Source of the DNA: Entamoeba invadens IP1
Taxonomy: Eukaryota > Evosea > Mastigamoebida > Endamoebidae
Assembly: GCF_000330505.1 (NCBI RefSeq)
Contig: NW_004443648.1
Span: 932,191 to 996,190, forward strand
Length of the DNA stretch: 64,000 bases
Direction of reading: 5' to 3'
Part shown: piece by piece, positions 14,451 through 20,726 of the stretch
How positions within the stretch are numbered: the first letter of the stretch is position 1
Layout of the letters: each line of letters opens with the position of its first letter
Program-made: the position numbers and the translations under genes
Notes under the pieces: generated by a model
Seen by the model: the letters and a program-made list of their open reading frames with translations, nothing else
Database searches by the model: none
What the model was told of the DNA's origin: nothing

Positions 14451-14666
14451 TATTTCTTGGTTAATACAGGGTTGTCGAAAGAGTTTTAGTTGAATTTTAA
14501 ACTCATAATAAAACGTCAATAATCTTTATATTGATGTTTATATAGTTGTGTTTAGCTTAAAATGCTGAAAATGTTGAAATATAATCACTATTTTAATAAC
14601 TAATTACTTTCATTTATAATTAAAATATTTAATATAAATATCTATAGATATGGCTTACAGTTGGAG

Positions 14667-14705
14667 TAATAACCTGTCAACCGGAACTAACCTGTCAGCC
14701 ATTTT
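14667..14705 (+). repeat. Left terminal inverted repeat of pogo/Fot1-like element
   Basis: It starts TAATAACCTGTCAACC and ends CAGCCATTTT. It pairs with the complement of 17690-17728, with mismatches only near the tip and at one internal G/A. Confidence 0.85.
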
Positions 14706-15374
14706 TTAAATTCAATTTATGGTATTTTAACCATTAATTTGTCTTTTTTAGATTATTCAAGTTCAACAAAATCAATAACAAAAAGCAATGAACGAATGAG
14801 ATGTTTTCTTCGAATTTCAAAAACGAAAAAAAAGCCGAAAAAAACTTCAAAAATTTCCAAAATTTGTCCTCATTTCACCAAAAAGAGTCATCGTTTTATA
14901 AAACATTTTCTTTTTTACTTGGTTATATTTTCTTGATTTTTTTAGAAAATGTCTTCTCGTATTGAATCAATTTCAAAGTCTTTACCAAAAAGTTAAAGTG
15001 GAAGATATTCAAATCCCCCCAAACCCCAATTTTTGCACAAAACAATCCATTATTTTCATTTAAACAATTTTCTTTTAGGTTTTAAATCGTTCATAACTTT
15101 AAACATCCTTTTCATGTTGCCAAGTTTTTCATCACTGAATCTGATGTCCTGCTTCCCTAATCCTCAAAATCGCGTTGTCGCTGATCACAACACTGAAATT
15201 CCAAAAGAGACAAAAGAAACAAAACAGTTGAAGAAACCTTCTCTTTCACAAAACAGTATGCGTCAAAATGTCCAGAAATCAAAAGAGAATGGTATCTCTC
15301 CAAAGAGACTTCTTCTTGTTGAACAGGCTCTTGAACAAGCTTGGTAGGATGAGACATTTTTGAAGGAGACTTCC

Positions 15375-17477
15375 ATGCGTGAACAAATCCATTATTTGCA
15401 TTACAAACTTCATCACTCAACAAGAACTATCCAGATGCTTTATGGTGCTTCAAAATCCACGATAGACACCCACACCAGAAAAAAAATCGGAGAATTGAAG
15501 AACGGCAAACCTCCAAAAATCTCCAAAGATGTTGATAACAAAATCGACAAGTGGCTTGTCACTTGTAAACGAAAGGGAATTGCATGTACTGTCACTGGAA
15601 TTCTTCGGTACCTGAGTCAAAAAGTACCCGACATTGAAATATCGCGACGGGGTCTCATTAAACACATGAAGAAGTTGAAGATTGGTCTCAAGAAAGCAAC
15701 CGCAGAAGATCTAGACAGAATCTCCATCAATCCAGAGAACATTGTTGATAACTTCAAAGAGCTCAAAAAGTTTGACAATATACCAGCAGCCCTATGTGTA
15801 AACATCGATGAAATGGGAAGCAACGATTGGGCAGACAGAAAGAATCTATACATCTTCCAGAGTAATGAGGACAAGACAACCCCAAAGCACGGTTGTAGCA
15901 GGTCAAGTAAACATTCCACGGCGATAGTTGGAATTTGTGCGGATGGAACAACGTTGCCTTTCGGCATTGTCATCAACCAAAAACAGTTCTTTTGCGAAGC
16001 CAAAGAGAAGTTCCCCGACTGTTTCGTCTATTACACAAACAACGGGTTCGTCAACAAATATATCTTCAAGCATTGGATGGCGCAGATCATCAAAGTGATC
16101 GTCAAAAAGAGAACAGAACTTGGTCTTGATGGTAGTTGGGGACTTATCACAATGGACAACTTTTCGGGACATCTTGACGAGGAGCTTCTTGGATGGCTCG
16201 AAGCAAACCAGATCAAATTGCACACATACTGCCCCCATTCAAGTCACCTCACTCAACCACTCGATCTGTGTTTTTTTGGAGCAGTCAAAAAACACTCAAA
16301 CGCAGCAAAGTCACTTGTTCGAAAGAGCGCTCCCACCAAAGAAATCACCACTATGTTTTCAGAAGTTGAACAAGAAGATGAGTCCGACCAGGAAGTCAAC
16401 GACGCCTTCAATGAATTCATCGAAGATCCAGAGGACGTAGAGATTATGAAGTCGTTTGCAATGGAAGATGAAGCAATCAACAAAGTCCTTAATGGAAACA
16501 AAAGATCTCCAAACGGAAGGCAAATCAGCCTCAAAATCTCCTCACTTCTCAAGACTCTGAGTGATCGCTCAACCATTGGAACAGTGGTGGTTTCATTTGA
16601 GAGAAGTGGGATTGTCGTCAGAGAGGTAGATGGTATCAAACGAATAAGAATTGACCCGAATCGAGCTGCGCGGTTTGTAAAAGAATATACTTCCATCGCG
16701 ACAAGAACGGACATTCTGGAAATGTCGGAAATTCCGAATGAACCCGTTCTCATTGGGACTGTCGATGAAAAGGTTGTTGAAGTTCCCAACCTTTTGTCGA
16801 CTCTGGTTGCGACGATCACAAAAGGTGTCGAAGCAATAGAGAACATTTGTTGTTCCGAAGAAATGAGACAGAGTGTAATCCTGATACAGAACGAGATCCA
16901 GAAACTGACAGAGTTTAAAGAAAGGTACAACCCAAGTGAGAAGTCTTTGGAACCAGTTAAGTTTTATCTGGATCAAGACAAAAGGAGATACTTTGTTTCC
17001 AGCAAGCATGGTGACGATATCACGTTTTCAAGGAGGTGGTTCGAAAGGATGGATGGTGTTAATGTAACAGTGGTCCAACCCGATTGCCCCATAACCCCAA
17101 TTCAAAACATCCCAGGAAGTTCCCAACAAAACGAGCAAAGAGGAAGAAGAACAAGTCGTAGAGGAAGAGCTCCAAGCAATAACAGAAGAATGGACACCAA
17201 CAGCATTTCCAACGCCGGTCAAGAGACTTCCATCCATAATACTCAACAAGTAGAATTGCGACCGCCCCGGTTGGATTCTTTTCAACCTGACGGTTCTGGA
17301 ACCCCCAGTTTCCAACCCACCTTCGCTGTTAATTATGTGACACTCGGAACCCCATTCGAAACACTGGGGTATTCTCAAAAAAGACAAACCTTTTTTCTCC
17401 TCAATTCTTCCCACATAGTGAATTGCAACAGCGTGGCAGAATGTTGTCCCAGCATCCCACCCATCAGCTTCAGCTGA
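15375..17477 (+). CDS. DDE transposase (DD35D, pogo/Fot1-like)
   Basis: About 700 residues from the first ATG at 15375; the frame opens at a TTG. The N-terminus is an HTH/CENP-B-like DNA-binding region (about residues 1-110). The catalytic triad is visible as NIDEMG (about D145), TMDNFSGH (about D261) and SHLTQPLDLCFFG (about D297), with 35 residues between the last two acids. The HSSHLTQPLD motif is the signature of DDE_1 pogo/Fot1/CENP-B transposases. The last 150 residues are Arg/Ser/Gln-rich. The same frame continues upstream of an in-frame TAG at 15345-15347 into a plausible N-terminal stretch from an ATG near 15114, so the original protein may have been longer and be truncated here. Confidence 0.85.
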   Translation: MREQIHYLHYKLHHSTRTIQMLYGASKSTIDTHTRKKIGELKNGKPPKISKDVDNKIDKWLVTCKRKGIACTVTGILRYLSQKVPDIEISRRGLIKHMKKLKIGLKKATAEDLDRISINPENIVDNFKELKKFDNIPAALCVNIDEMGSNDWADRKNLYIFQSNEDKTTPKHGCSRSSKHSTAIVGICADGTTLPFGIVINQKQFFCEAKEKFPDCFVYYTNNGFVNKYIFKHWMAQIIKVIVKKRTELGLDGSWGLITMDNFSGHLDEELLGWLEANQIKLHTYCPHSSHLTQPLDLCFFGAVKKHSNAAKSLVRKSAPTKEITTMFSEVEQEDESDQEVNDAFNEFIEDPEDVEIMKSFAMEDEAINKVLNGNKRSPNGRQISLKISSLLKTLSDRSTIGTVVVSFERSGIVVREVDGIKRIRIDPNRAARFVKEYTSIATRTDILEMSEIPNEPVLIGTVDEKVVEVPNLLSTLVATITKGVEAIENICCSEEMRQSVILIQNEIQKLTEFKERYNPSEKSLEPVKFYLDQDKRRYFVSSKHGDDITFSRRWFERMDGVNVTVVQPDCPITPIQNIPGSSQQNEQRGRRTSRRGRAPSNNRRMDTNSISNAGQETSIHNTQQVELRPPRLDSFQPDGSGTPSFQPTFAVNYVTLGTPFETLGYSQKRQTFFLLNSSHIVNCNSVAECCPSIPPISFS

Positions 17478-17689
17478 GGCTGGTCCTCGATGACCAAAGC
17501 GTTGATGAAGAACATCACAATTAAGATGTCTTTTACTCTCATCGTTTTTCTTTTTTAGTTTTACTTTTTTACAAAACCCAAAAATACCAAAAATACCAAA
17601 AAAGCTGACAGGTTTCATTTTTGAGATGAAATCTCAAAAAACAAATGCCATAAAAAACATACTAATCCGGGTTTTAGGCTTCCTAAAGG

Positions 17690-17728
17690 AAAATGGCTGA
17701 CAGGTTAGTTCTGGTTGACAGGTTAGTA
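17690..17728 (-). repeat. Right terminal inverted repeat of pogo/Fot1-like element
   Basis: It is the inverted partner of 14667-14705 and ends in TA at 17727-17728. Internally it contains two CAGGTTAGT units in tandem. Confidence 0.85.
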
Positions 17729-17743
17729 CCTCACCTGTATATC

Positions 17744-17871: not shown

Positions 17872-18393
17872 CTTATATCCATCGTTATTTTATATAATTA
17901 AATATCGATAATTATAAATACAATAATTTATGTAATATGTTATACATATTGATTTAATTATATTTTTAATTTCGTTTATTTTTTTATTTCGAAAACAATC
18001 AAAAATGTTATATAAAATGTTTTTTGTTTCTGTGTATTATTGTAACTTCTGGAAAATTGTTGTGAAAGATAATAAATAATATACAGTATAAATTCTATCG
18101 GTGTGTGGAGTCATGAAAATGGTTTTCCCAAGGTGTGTAAATTTTTTTTTCTTTTCTTTTTTAATTTCTGGCAAATAAACTAAAAATTGATGAAATTTGT
18201 AAAACTATCCACAATCAAGAAAAATGACAAAATGTATTTTTTGTTTTTTTTTGAAAAAAAAACGCGACACGTGTAAACATAAAATAATATTGTGAATTTT
18301 TTTAAATTGTTTAGAATAAGAACAACGCATTGTGTTTTTGTATAAACACGTGGACTTTTGGTGCGGATTCTTGTCAATTTACAACTCGAGTGT

Positions 18394-18812
18394 ACCTTGA
18401 TAATTGCTTCAATTGCTTCTTTGTCTTTTGTTGATAACCTTGAAAAAATTTGCTTGTTCACCGTGTTATTACACGGTAGCATAAAATGAGTGTCGATTTT
18501 TAGCCTCAAAAGTTATCATCTTGCCGTCCTCCGCCTTGAACTTCTTTGCGTCTGCAACCATCTTGTCCACTTGTGCCTTTGAGAATCTTCTTTCCTGTTG
18601 TCTCGTTTTCAGCCGACACATTTAATATCCCATTTGCATTTGTGTCAAACGTGACTTCAACTGTGAGACTCCATGTGGTGCTAATAAGATACCAAACAAC
18701 CCAAACTTTCCAAGCAGGTTGCAGTGTGATGTCATAGATGCCTCACCCTCAAAGACTTGGATGAGCACGCCAGGCTTATTGTCTGCATGTGTCGAAAATA
18801 TCTGTGACTTCC
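18394..18812 (-). pseudogene. Hsp70 substrate-binding-domain fragment, frameshifted
   Basis: On the minus strand from 18810 the translation reads [21 protein letters not shown], then after a frameshift [18 protein letters not shown], then in another frame KAQVDKMVADAKKFKAED, and finally NTVNKQ with KDKEAIEAI. These are consecutive segments of the Hsp70 substrate-binding and lid region in the right order. At least two frameshifts and several stops break it. About 420 bases survive; the ATPase domain and the C-terminus are absent. It lies wholly inside the 18082-19191 TIR element. Confidence 0.85.
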
Positions 18813-18818
18813 TTAATT

Positions 18819-18852
18819 AACTTATTAATTTAATATCTGAAATTAATAAGTT
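18819..18852. repeat. Perfect 13 bp hairpin
   Basis: AACTTATTAATTT pairs with AAATTAATAAGTT across an 8-base loop, at the edge of the captured Hsp70 fragment. It may mark the junction of the capture. Confidence 0.6.
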
Positions 18853-18873
18853 TTGTGGTATCAATTCTGTCAT

Positions 18874-18909
18874 CACACCAATCACAAGCGTTCTCTTGTG
18901 ATTGGTGTG
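18874..18909. repeat. Perfect 15 bp hairpin
   Basis: CACACCAATCACAAG pairs perfectly with CTTGTGATTGGTGTG across a 6-base loop. GATTGGT recurs near the right terminus (19156), so this may be an internal copy of subterminal transposon sequence. Confidence 0.7.
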
Positions 18910-19256
18910 TGGTAGTCGGTGCATTTTTTATTATCATTTAAAGTTTAATATTTTGAGAGGAGCATTTTCTGCTTTTCTTTTCTTATCTTTTTTGAATTGA
19001 TTTTTGTTTGATAATTTTTCTCTTTTTAAGTTTTTATTACCAAGTCTTTACTCTTTTTAAATAAAAACAAATTTGCAATGGACATTATTTTTGCGGGTTT
19101 TGGTGCCAAATATGTGGGAAATCATTATATTATATCGGTGTGTAGGTCACTTTTGATTGGTCAAAACCACACCGATAGAATTTCTACTGTATGATTTTAT
19201 AATAAAATAATAATTTCTTAATAAACAACGTTTGTTGAATTACTTTATGACTCTTT

Positions 19257-20726
19257 TAAAGAGTGTTAACGTGATAGGGCGTATCCACACAGAAATTGTG
19301 AATCTTTGTGGATTGGAATATTTTGTGTGGATAGCCTCTTATTTTTTTGTCGAAAAAACCCAAATATTCGTTTTAAACCATATGTTATGATTTTTAAAAT
19401 TAATAATTGTTACTTATAATCATTTATGGGACAAAAATGATACACAAACATGAATACCCCCATAAAGAGTATTTCCAAGTTTCGCAATAATTTCATAGTA
19501 AAAAAAAACGCTATTTTCAGCCTTTTTGTGGAGTGGTAAAATAAGAATAGATCAAAATGAACAAATAAAATAATTAACAAAATTTACGTGTATTATCCCG
19601 TTTATTTGATACATGTAACACTATTTTTTTCGTTTTTTTTAATTGAAAAAACATTTCAAAAGTGATTTATGTGATTATAATTTGGGAAAATTCCCGTTTT
19701 TTGCATTATAAAATATTTAATTTTAGTATCAATTAACAATTATATTATTTTTTTTGTTTATCGTGGCTCAAAATTGCATTTATTATCACTTTTTACTAAT
19801 AGTATTGTAATTTATATAAACACTCCATTAGTTTATTATTTTAATAATAATATTTGAAAATTGAAATTTGTTAAATAAAGTTCTTTTAGTTGGCGCAAAT
19901 TATACGTATAAAGACGGGTATTACATCCTAAATTATATTCTGGTTTTGTTGAAAATGTTAAACATTGAGGTTTTATGTCTAAACTAAACTATTAATTAAT
20001 AACAATAAATTATATTACAATAGTACATTATTTATGAACATAAAAATGACAGAATAATCACAAAACAAATTCTATTAACATAGTTAAATAAAATGTAATT
20101 TTTACTATAAAAACGTTAAAAAGTTAAATGGCAAATTACCACATTGTTACCATAAGTTATTTTTTATGTTATTAAAAAAAATCATAACAACACAAGTTAA
20201 TTAGAATAGAATTATACGGCAAATACGAACAAAAACCATCAAAAAATACAAGTCATGTTACTCATTACATCTAACATGTAATAATAAAGATTGTCTATCT
20301 ATATTTACTATCCACACCTTTTCAGCTTATCCACAGTAAACTATGCCATAGTATTTTATGACAAATTATTTGTTATTTTTCAAATTTTTCAATTTCAATA
20401 ATTTTTTTGATTAAATATAGTTTATACAATTAATTAAATAAACTAAAGTTAATTAATAAAAAAACTTTAGTCTTAAAATTTTTACCAAAAATATTTTTTT
20501 TTGCGGCAAATTAATTGAAATGGTAAAAGTAAAAGATGACTTTTACTAAAAATAAAATTTGATTTTTCTGTTTTAACTTTCAAAAAAATCGGTTTTTTAT
20601 GAATTCGGTCCAAAAAACGTATTTTTTTCTAAACTCTTAGGCAAATTTTATATCAATTACAACAAAAATGTGTAAGATTTTTAAAGCCATCCACATAAAA
20701 GTGGTCTATCACGTTAACACTCTTAA
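19257..20726. mobile_element. 1.46 kb non-coding TIR element
   Basis: An 18 bp perfect inverted repeat, AGAGTGTTAACGTGATAG, sits at 19260-19277 with its partner at 20706-20723. Directly outside both ends is TAA, a possible 3 bp target duplication as seen in PIF/Harbinger elements; TA plus an extra A is the alternative reading. The interior is extremely AT-rich and has no credible frame. Both ends carry a further GTGGAT motif just inside the repeat. Confidence 0.6.

Follow-up and report, generated by a model that had tools for sequence, protein, structure and literature searches.

How does a broken piece of an Hsp70 gene come to lie inside a transposon in Entamoeba invadens, and at what point did the element acquire it? 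The question is raised by a segment at positions 18082-19191 of a 64-kb stretch of E. invadens DNA (the window), which a preliminary description interpreted as a transposon with terminal inverted repeats (TIRs) that had captured a host gene fragment. Our analysis makes it very likely that this is a real transposon family of the pogo superfamily with captured host Hsp70, and that the copy in the window is an internally deleted, non-autonomous member. Contigs (C) and loci (L) carry our own numbers.

Ends and parts of the element in the window

The preliminary description placed 24-bp TIRs with TA at both ends at 18082-19191, and this claim is borne out: we detected an inverted repeat at 18081-18105 and 19168-19192 (25 nt, 96% complementary), and the end motif recurs genome-wide. 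With up to three mismatches allowed, there are 74 matches to the end motif in the genome compared to 0 for a reversed control pattern, so the terminal repeats are not due to chance. The element is made up of these parts:

18082..18105, plus strand: left terminal inverted repeat, starting with the TA target dinucleotide; TACAGTATAAATTCTATCGGTGTG
18106..18385, no strand: left subterminal region, with a counterpart in transposase-bearing relatives
18386..18879, minus strand: captured Hsp70 fragment, host codons ~411-581, frameshifted
18819..18852, no strand: hairpin from an inverted insertion of ~21 bp, in the window copy only (1 of 22)
18874..18909, no strand: hairpin with arms 18874-18888 and 18895-18909, made of Hsp70 codons ~294-303 and an inverted partial copy
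18880..18918, minus strand: captured Hsp70 fragment, host codons ~294-305, which an internal deletion of the passenger brings next to codon ~411
18919..19167, no strand: right subterminal region, element positions from ~842
19168..19191, minus strand: right terminal inverted repeat, with the TA target dinucleotide as its last two bases

The left part of the element has sequence matches of 70-82% identity in the longer relatives L031, L032, L045, and L061. The right subterminal region, which contains a palindrome (19129-19181), is preceded in the long relatives by the transposase gene.

As the reference host gene we used the complete Hsp70 on contig C112 (locus L064; 653 aa), whose best PDB matches are Hsp70 proteins. 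By tblastn, the window copy matches its coding sequence in antisense in three pieces that lie in order: 18814-18386 corresponds to codons 425-581, 18879-18849 to codons 411-421, and 18918-18893 to codons 294-303. The last is a scrap from the ATPase domain, weak alone in the window (E = 0.009) and clearer in other copies. Each of the 22 short copies has a match to this host gene; in other copies the tract of codons ~411-581 extends to ~591, and its orientation is opposite to that of the transposase gene in the long relatives. The preliminary description was right that the Hsp70 segment lies inside the element on the minus strand; its span of 18394-18812 has to be widened to 18386-18918. There is no Hsp70 match elsewhere in the 64-kb window (tblastn, E 0.01), so the similarity stops within the inverted repeats and does not run past them.

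Two perfect hairpins, 18819-18852 and 18874-18909, are confirmed in the sequence. The preliminary description had suggested that they may mark the junctions of the capture, a reading that does not hold up: the first occurs in just one of the 22 copies, that in the window, and the second derives from Hsp70 and lies at a later internal deletion. The latter hairpin sits at the internal-deletion junction of the short copies, with Hsp70 codons ~294-303 forming one of its arms. It occurs in 22 of 22 short copies, is nearly intact in L035 and degenerate in L034, and was not found in L031 or L032. A further deletion in the short copies joins Hsp70 codon ~305 to ~411.

The surroundings of the element hold other repeats. 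About 90 bp downstream lies a short imperfect palindrome (19282-19333) with TATCCACACA ends, perhaps another miniature element. Just upstream, positions 14658-17736 are occupied by a second DNA transposon. Its inverted ends are imperfect and adjoin TA, and it contains an uninterrupted ORF of 700 aa (15375-17477) that gives a borderline DDE_1 match (1.6e-4, 21.8 bits against a cut-off of 22). An element nested within L044, another copy of the family, matches it at 98.6% identity along ~3.08 kb, which suggests recent movement.

Dispersed copies and their target sites

We ran BLAST against the genome from which the window comes (35.0 Mb in 233 contigs). Beyond the window copy, at least 23 places align with the query over no fewer than 956 of its 1110 bases (86-92% identity); longer and partial relatives are also present. 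Including the window element, there are at least 22 complete short copies of 983-1144 bp with matching 24-bp ends. The dispersed copies with the same ends that the preliminary description expected of a mobile element are therefore there; their flanks are mostly unrelated, and Hsp70 is present in all 22 complete short copies.

Our copy table covers the 24 loci expected to have clean end pairs. When these paired-end loci were read, 22 measured 983-1144 bp, L032 measured 2538 bp, and L031 measured 3040 bp. Copies interrupted by nested elements (C6, C23, C49:74769, and C182) are left out of the table, as are L061, L050, single ends, and three miniature copies. TA stands on both sides in 24 of 24 paired-end copies, where the motif itself includes TA and up to six mismatches were allowed. 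The 300-bp flanks of the copies have in common only short or dispersed repeats. Mean pairwise identity among the 22 short copies is 91.3%, with 97.6% for the closest pair.

Empty sites were sought for 10 of the 24 copies with queries of 90 + 90 bp of flank joined by a single TA, and were found for two, L022 and L013. The empty site of L022 (C36:165339-165520; 91% over 182 of 182 bp) was read and has a single TA. L013 is inserted in a dispersed repeat, in which 19 places among the matches listed are empty (82-89%); four of these were read, each with a single TA. For the other eight copies there was no empty site among the matches listed, simple repeats having been skipped. These sites show, for two copies, that insertion duplicated the TA target.

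Some loci depart from the common form. Three miniature copies of 75-91 bp (C30:217829-217903, C213:165033-165123, and C188:68094-68168) are reduced to the ends and the part of the right end that starts at element position ~1048, so that ~1048-1110 is what they retain. At L043, L044, and L045, unrelated nested insertions of 1.9-3.1 kb with inverted ends lie at element position ~956-959, a possible insertion hotspot.

Transposase-bearing relatives and the origin of the Hsp70 fragment

Five relatives carry a transposase: L031, L032, L045 (which includes the stretch L033), L061, and L050/L070. In these long relatives the transposase is bounded by the Hsp70 side and the right end region. Complete end pairs are present in L031 and L032, both end motifs in L045, and the left motif only in L050; L061 failed the motif search and has a BLAST match to both end regions. 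The transposase of L032 matches DDE_1 (2.9e-30) and HTH_Tnp_Tc5 (3e-5) in Pfam, the catalytic triad of the family's transposase is D-D57-D, and the nearest database proteins are CENP-B-like and Tigger-like, the best at ~35% identity. Among the matches listed by two protein searches there is no Entamoeba protein. Given these two domains, the TA target, and the wide triad spacing, we assign the family to the pogo superfamily within the IS630-Tc1-mariner group. By motif positions, the spacing of the last two residues is 56 in L069 and 59 in L071. L069, a sister pogo element, has an open frame of 528 aa and imperfect ends beginning TACAGTAAAACCCC, and there is no Hsp70 match in its 4-kb locus.

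No uninterrupted transposase of the window element's own family was found; the best copy, L032, has one in-frame stop. Within the 64-kb window there is no match to this transposase (tblastn, E 0.01). With a broken transposase and a mean identity of 91.3%, neither current mobility nor recent spread is indicated, and the amplification of the short copies is, by the look of these sequences, not fresh.

Antisense Hsp70 and transposase occur together in four of the five relatives (L031, L045, L061, and L050/L070; tblastn). The fifth, L032, keeps only the stretch up to element position 403, the tail of the Hsp70 region of the window copy. One Hsp70 deletion (codons ~326 to 426) is common to L031, L033/L045, and L061, and L050 has codons ~272-394 with a weak match onward to ~228. 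Over all members, the captured span is at least Hsp70 codons ~272-591. Since Hsp70 is found in transposase-bearing relatives, the fragment probably entered a transposase-bearing ancestor, and the short form seems to have arisen by internal deletion. This bears on the earlier proposal of Pack-type capture: the window copy is indeed a TIR element with a host fragment and without a transposase, but acquisition by a non-autonomous element does not fit with four of five transposase-bearing relatives carrying Hsp70.

To place the donor, we built a tree from the shared Hsp70 region (21 rows, including 7 of the 22 short copies, with L075 as outgroup). The family's pieces form one group (78/91), moderate support for a single origin, and the long and short copies form a group within it (95/98). 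The family group nests with host genes L064/L065 and not with L063/L074 (88/97). On this tree, the donor lineage, which the preliminary description had left to be identified, is the cytosolic Hsp70 of contigs C112/C66.

L034 and L035 lack a transposase and have a longer Hsp70 joined to the right end (codons 294-574 and 294-561, respectively). Both are truncated, and no left end was found for either. Related segments in these two loci and in L031 match Pfam HSP70. The evidence on their position conflicts: the shared hairpin puts them with the short copies, whereas in the Hsp70 tree they fall outside the group formed by the long and short copies (95/98).

We propose the following history. An ancestor with a transposase would have acquired an internal fragment of the host cytosolic Hsp70, antisense, between its left end and the divergent transposase gene, most likely as host DNA copied in during the repair of an excision gap. 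Descendants would have lost the transposase to give L034, L035, and the short copies, which have a common Hsp70-derived hairpin beside the right end; the order of these losses is our reconstruction. The short lineage would also have lost Hsp70 codons ~306-410 and would have been amplified by cut-and-paste, with transposase acting in trans on conserved ends and TA targets. Judging from the shared ends, this transposase would have been the family's own. The passenger travels with the element and is not under selection as a protein.

Fate of the passenger, rival explanations, and known systems

We asked how the passenger has changed since capture, using 21 of the 22 short copies (L038 was dropped because of a large deletion). 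Polymorphic sites are spread evenly over the three codon positions (66/61/76 of 165/165/166, p = 0.44), and each copy has 5-10 frameshifting gaps. As a control, the host paralog L063 differs from L064 mostly at third positions (24/6/77). The even spread and the frameshifts show that the passenger is not kept as a protein: it is without protein-level constraint in the short copies, and a functional Hsp70 protein is unsupported. Fixed differences between the short copies and the host (15/6/11 by codon position, p = 0.15) are too scarce for any further statement. In the long copies and in L034/L035, the differences from the host are spread unevenly over codon positions, with the fewest at second positions (p 1e-4 to 3e-3), which can stem from the host branch; for L067, a separate Hsp70-containing repeat, the same test gives p = 0.035.

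The passenger also bears signs of exchange. We took the 59 sites where the long copies agree and yet differ from both hosts, L064 and L065, and scored L034 and L067 along with 4 of the 22 short copies. In the short copies tested, the host state predominates over the first 28 sites and the element state over the remaining ones. In the window copy, host-like and element-like sites number 22:4 versus 9:14 (p = 0.0013); p is 1.7e-5 for L005, 5.9e-5 for L009, 1.3e-5 for L023, and 0.0096 for L034, compared to 0.59 for the control L067. These values are indicative only, as sites were taken as independent, the cut at 28 was chosen post hoc, and the copies are related. At element positions ~290-345, the 22 short copies fall into two sequence types in the Hsp70 tail. 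Type 1 (L001-L004, L020) resembles host L064/L065 and L067; type 2 resembles the long copies L061/L031/L033. A small host-like patch near codons 575-580 is present in L001-L004 and partly in L006 and L020. Together, the clustered sites and host-like patches suggest exchange with Hsp70-like sequence after capture.

Could the fragment have been retained for a function other than a protein, for example by giving rise to antisense or small RNAs directed at host Hsp70, or by a camouflage that renders the element costly to silence? In favor are its antisense orientation to the transposase, its persistence in all 22 short copies and, clearly, in four of the five relatives with a transposase, and stretches of up to 40 nt in element copies that are still identical to host Hsp70 genes; in addition, according to the available text of PMC4053983, unannotated transcripts of E. 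invadens commonly held DDE_1 and hsp70 domains. Set against this are the absence of coding constraint with its many frameshifts, the near-complete loss of Hsp70 from L032, and the fact that descent explains the shared presence, and we judge such retention very unlikely. Another reading is that ordinary Hsp70 pseudogenes were hit by an unrelated transposon, or that a segmental duplication was mistaken for an element. Hsp70 fragments are common in this genome (75 Pfam matches), but 22 copies have the same Hsp70 junction with mostly unrelated flanks, TA at both ends, and empty sites for two, leaving this reading with next to no probability.

A composite origin deserves more weight, although we still consider it unlikely: two pogo elements flanking an Hsp70 pseudogene could have moved together, in place of copying during gap repair. 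The large captured piece (at least codons ~272-591), its position between one end and the transposase, and the abundance of Hsp70 pieces in the genome would all suit such a unit. A motif search of L045 and L050, however, turned up no further pair of ends inside them; such a pair, if decayed, might escape this search, as the left part is 18-30% diverged, and the ends of L031 and L032 were read for the best outer pair only. Capture by a transposase-bearing pogo element followed by internal deletion is the account that we favor. It is improbable, in our estimate, that Hsp70 is a preferred target of capture here, with highly transcribed, heat-inducible loci serving as gap-repair templates and antisense copies feeding RNA silencing. 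What prompts this idea is that two more multicopy repeats, described next, hold Hsp70 pieces of their own, and that exchange between the pogo copies and Hsp70 seems to continue.

Hsp70 sequence is found in other repeats of this genome as well. The L066 family (C178:52000-55700, with L068) carries an Hsp70 chimera that joins codons ~31-304 to codons ~471-654, the two parts having 95% and 87% identity to host DNA; eight other copies (C214, C175, C51, C24, C199, C165, C222, and C173), 92-97% identical, span L066:1-2624. Adjoining this Hsp70 is a transposase-like ORF without Pfam support; a hAT label for it is not supported, as Pfam finds no hAT domain at E up to 10. A second repeat begins at TTAA within the L066-type repeat (L066:2621 onward, C178) and also occurs on C120, C158, and C162; its reverse-strand ORF is presumably piggyBac-like. 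The L067 repeat (~1.6 kb; L067:968-2537, C168) contains Hsp70 codons ~379-616 and has five other copies at 89-93% identity (C175, C57, C171, C138, and C213, the last partial).

How does the family compare with known systems? Plant Pack-TYPE transposons are described in the available text of PMC8903248 for MULE, CACTA, hAT, PIF, and Mariner elements, including Pack-Mariner. The window element is like them in being a non-autonomous TIR element with a host coding fragment inside and its superfamily's target duplication; unlike them, the fragment is also found in transposase-bearing relatives, the superfamily is pogo, and the host is an amoebozoan. A complete hAT transposon carrying histone H3 in Pseudocercospora fijiensis (PMC6710886, as far as its available text goes) is likewise a transposase-bearing DNA transposon that captured a housekeeping gene and was amplified, with decayed copies. 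The fungal element has an 8-bp duplication and hundreds of RIP-inactivated copies, whereas here we find a pogo element, TA, and tens of copies. Turmoil-1 of C. elegans also has coding fragments in a DNA transposon outside plants; in the part of PMC2572040 available, they lie in the inverted terminal repeats, whereas here they lie in the interior.

Closer to the host, the pogoR elements of Amoebozoa, some with DD56D or DD59D, are like this family in the very wide spacing of the last two residues (here DD57D), the TA target, and short ends; we set the two side by side by description, and unlike the present case, the available text of PMC7386202 mentions no captured host gene for pogoR. The Tc1/mariner families of E. 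invadens (Hydargos, Gemini, Piglet, Mogwai, and Gizmo) are of a related superfamily and probably the same host group, a comparison made by name only; the accessible text of PMC2657916 contains 0 occurrences of pogo, hsp70, heat shock, MITE, or capture. In E. histolytica, a cluster of 31 Hsp70 members is associated with transposable elements within 1 kb in 30% of cases (PMC2886108, partial text); that is proximity to elements, whereas here the fragment is inside one. The portion of PMC6414313 at hand reports eight heat shock protein families with 27 genes unique to E. invadens, and Tigger-like genes in E. moshkovskii. Among the titles and starts of abstracts listed in our searches of the open-licence literature, we found no earlier report of such a capture in Amoebozoa or Entamoeba or in the pogo superfamily.

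Gene-fragment capture by cut-and-paste transposons is best known in plants, with cases in fungi and nematodes. Here, one genome keeps several stages, namely transposase with Hsp70, Hsp70 without transposase, and a shorter, amplified form, so that capture, loss, and amplification can be studied together. The family may also help to explain the broken Hsp70 pieces of this genome and the E. invadens transcripts with hsp70 and DDE_1 domains described in the available text of PMC4053983.
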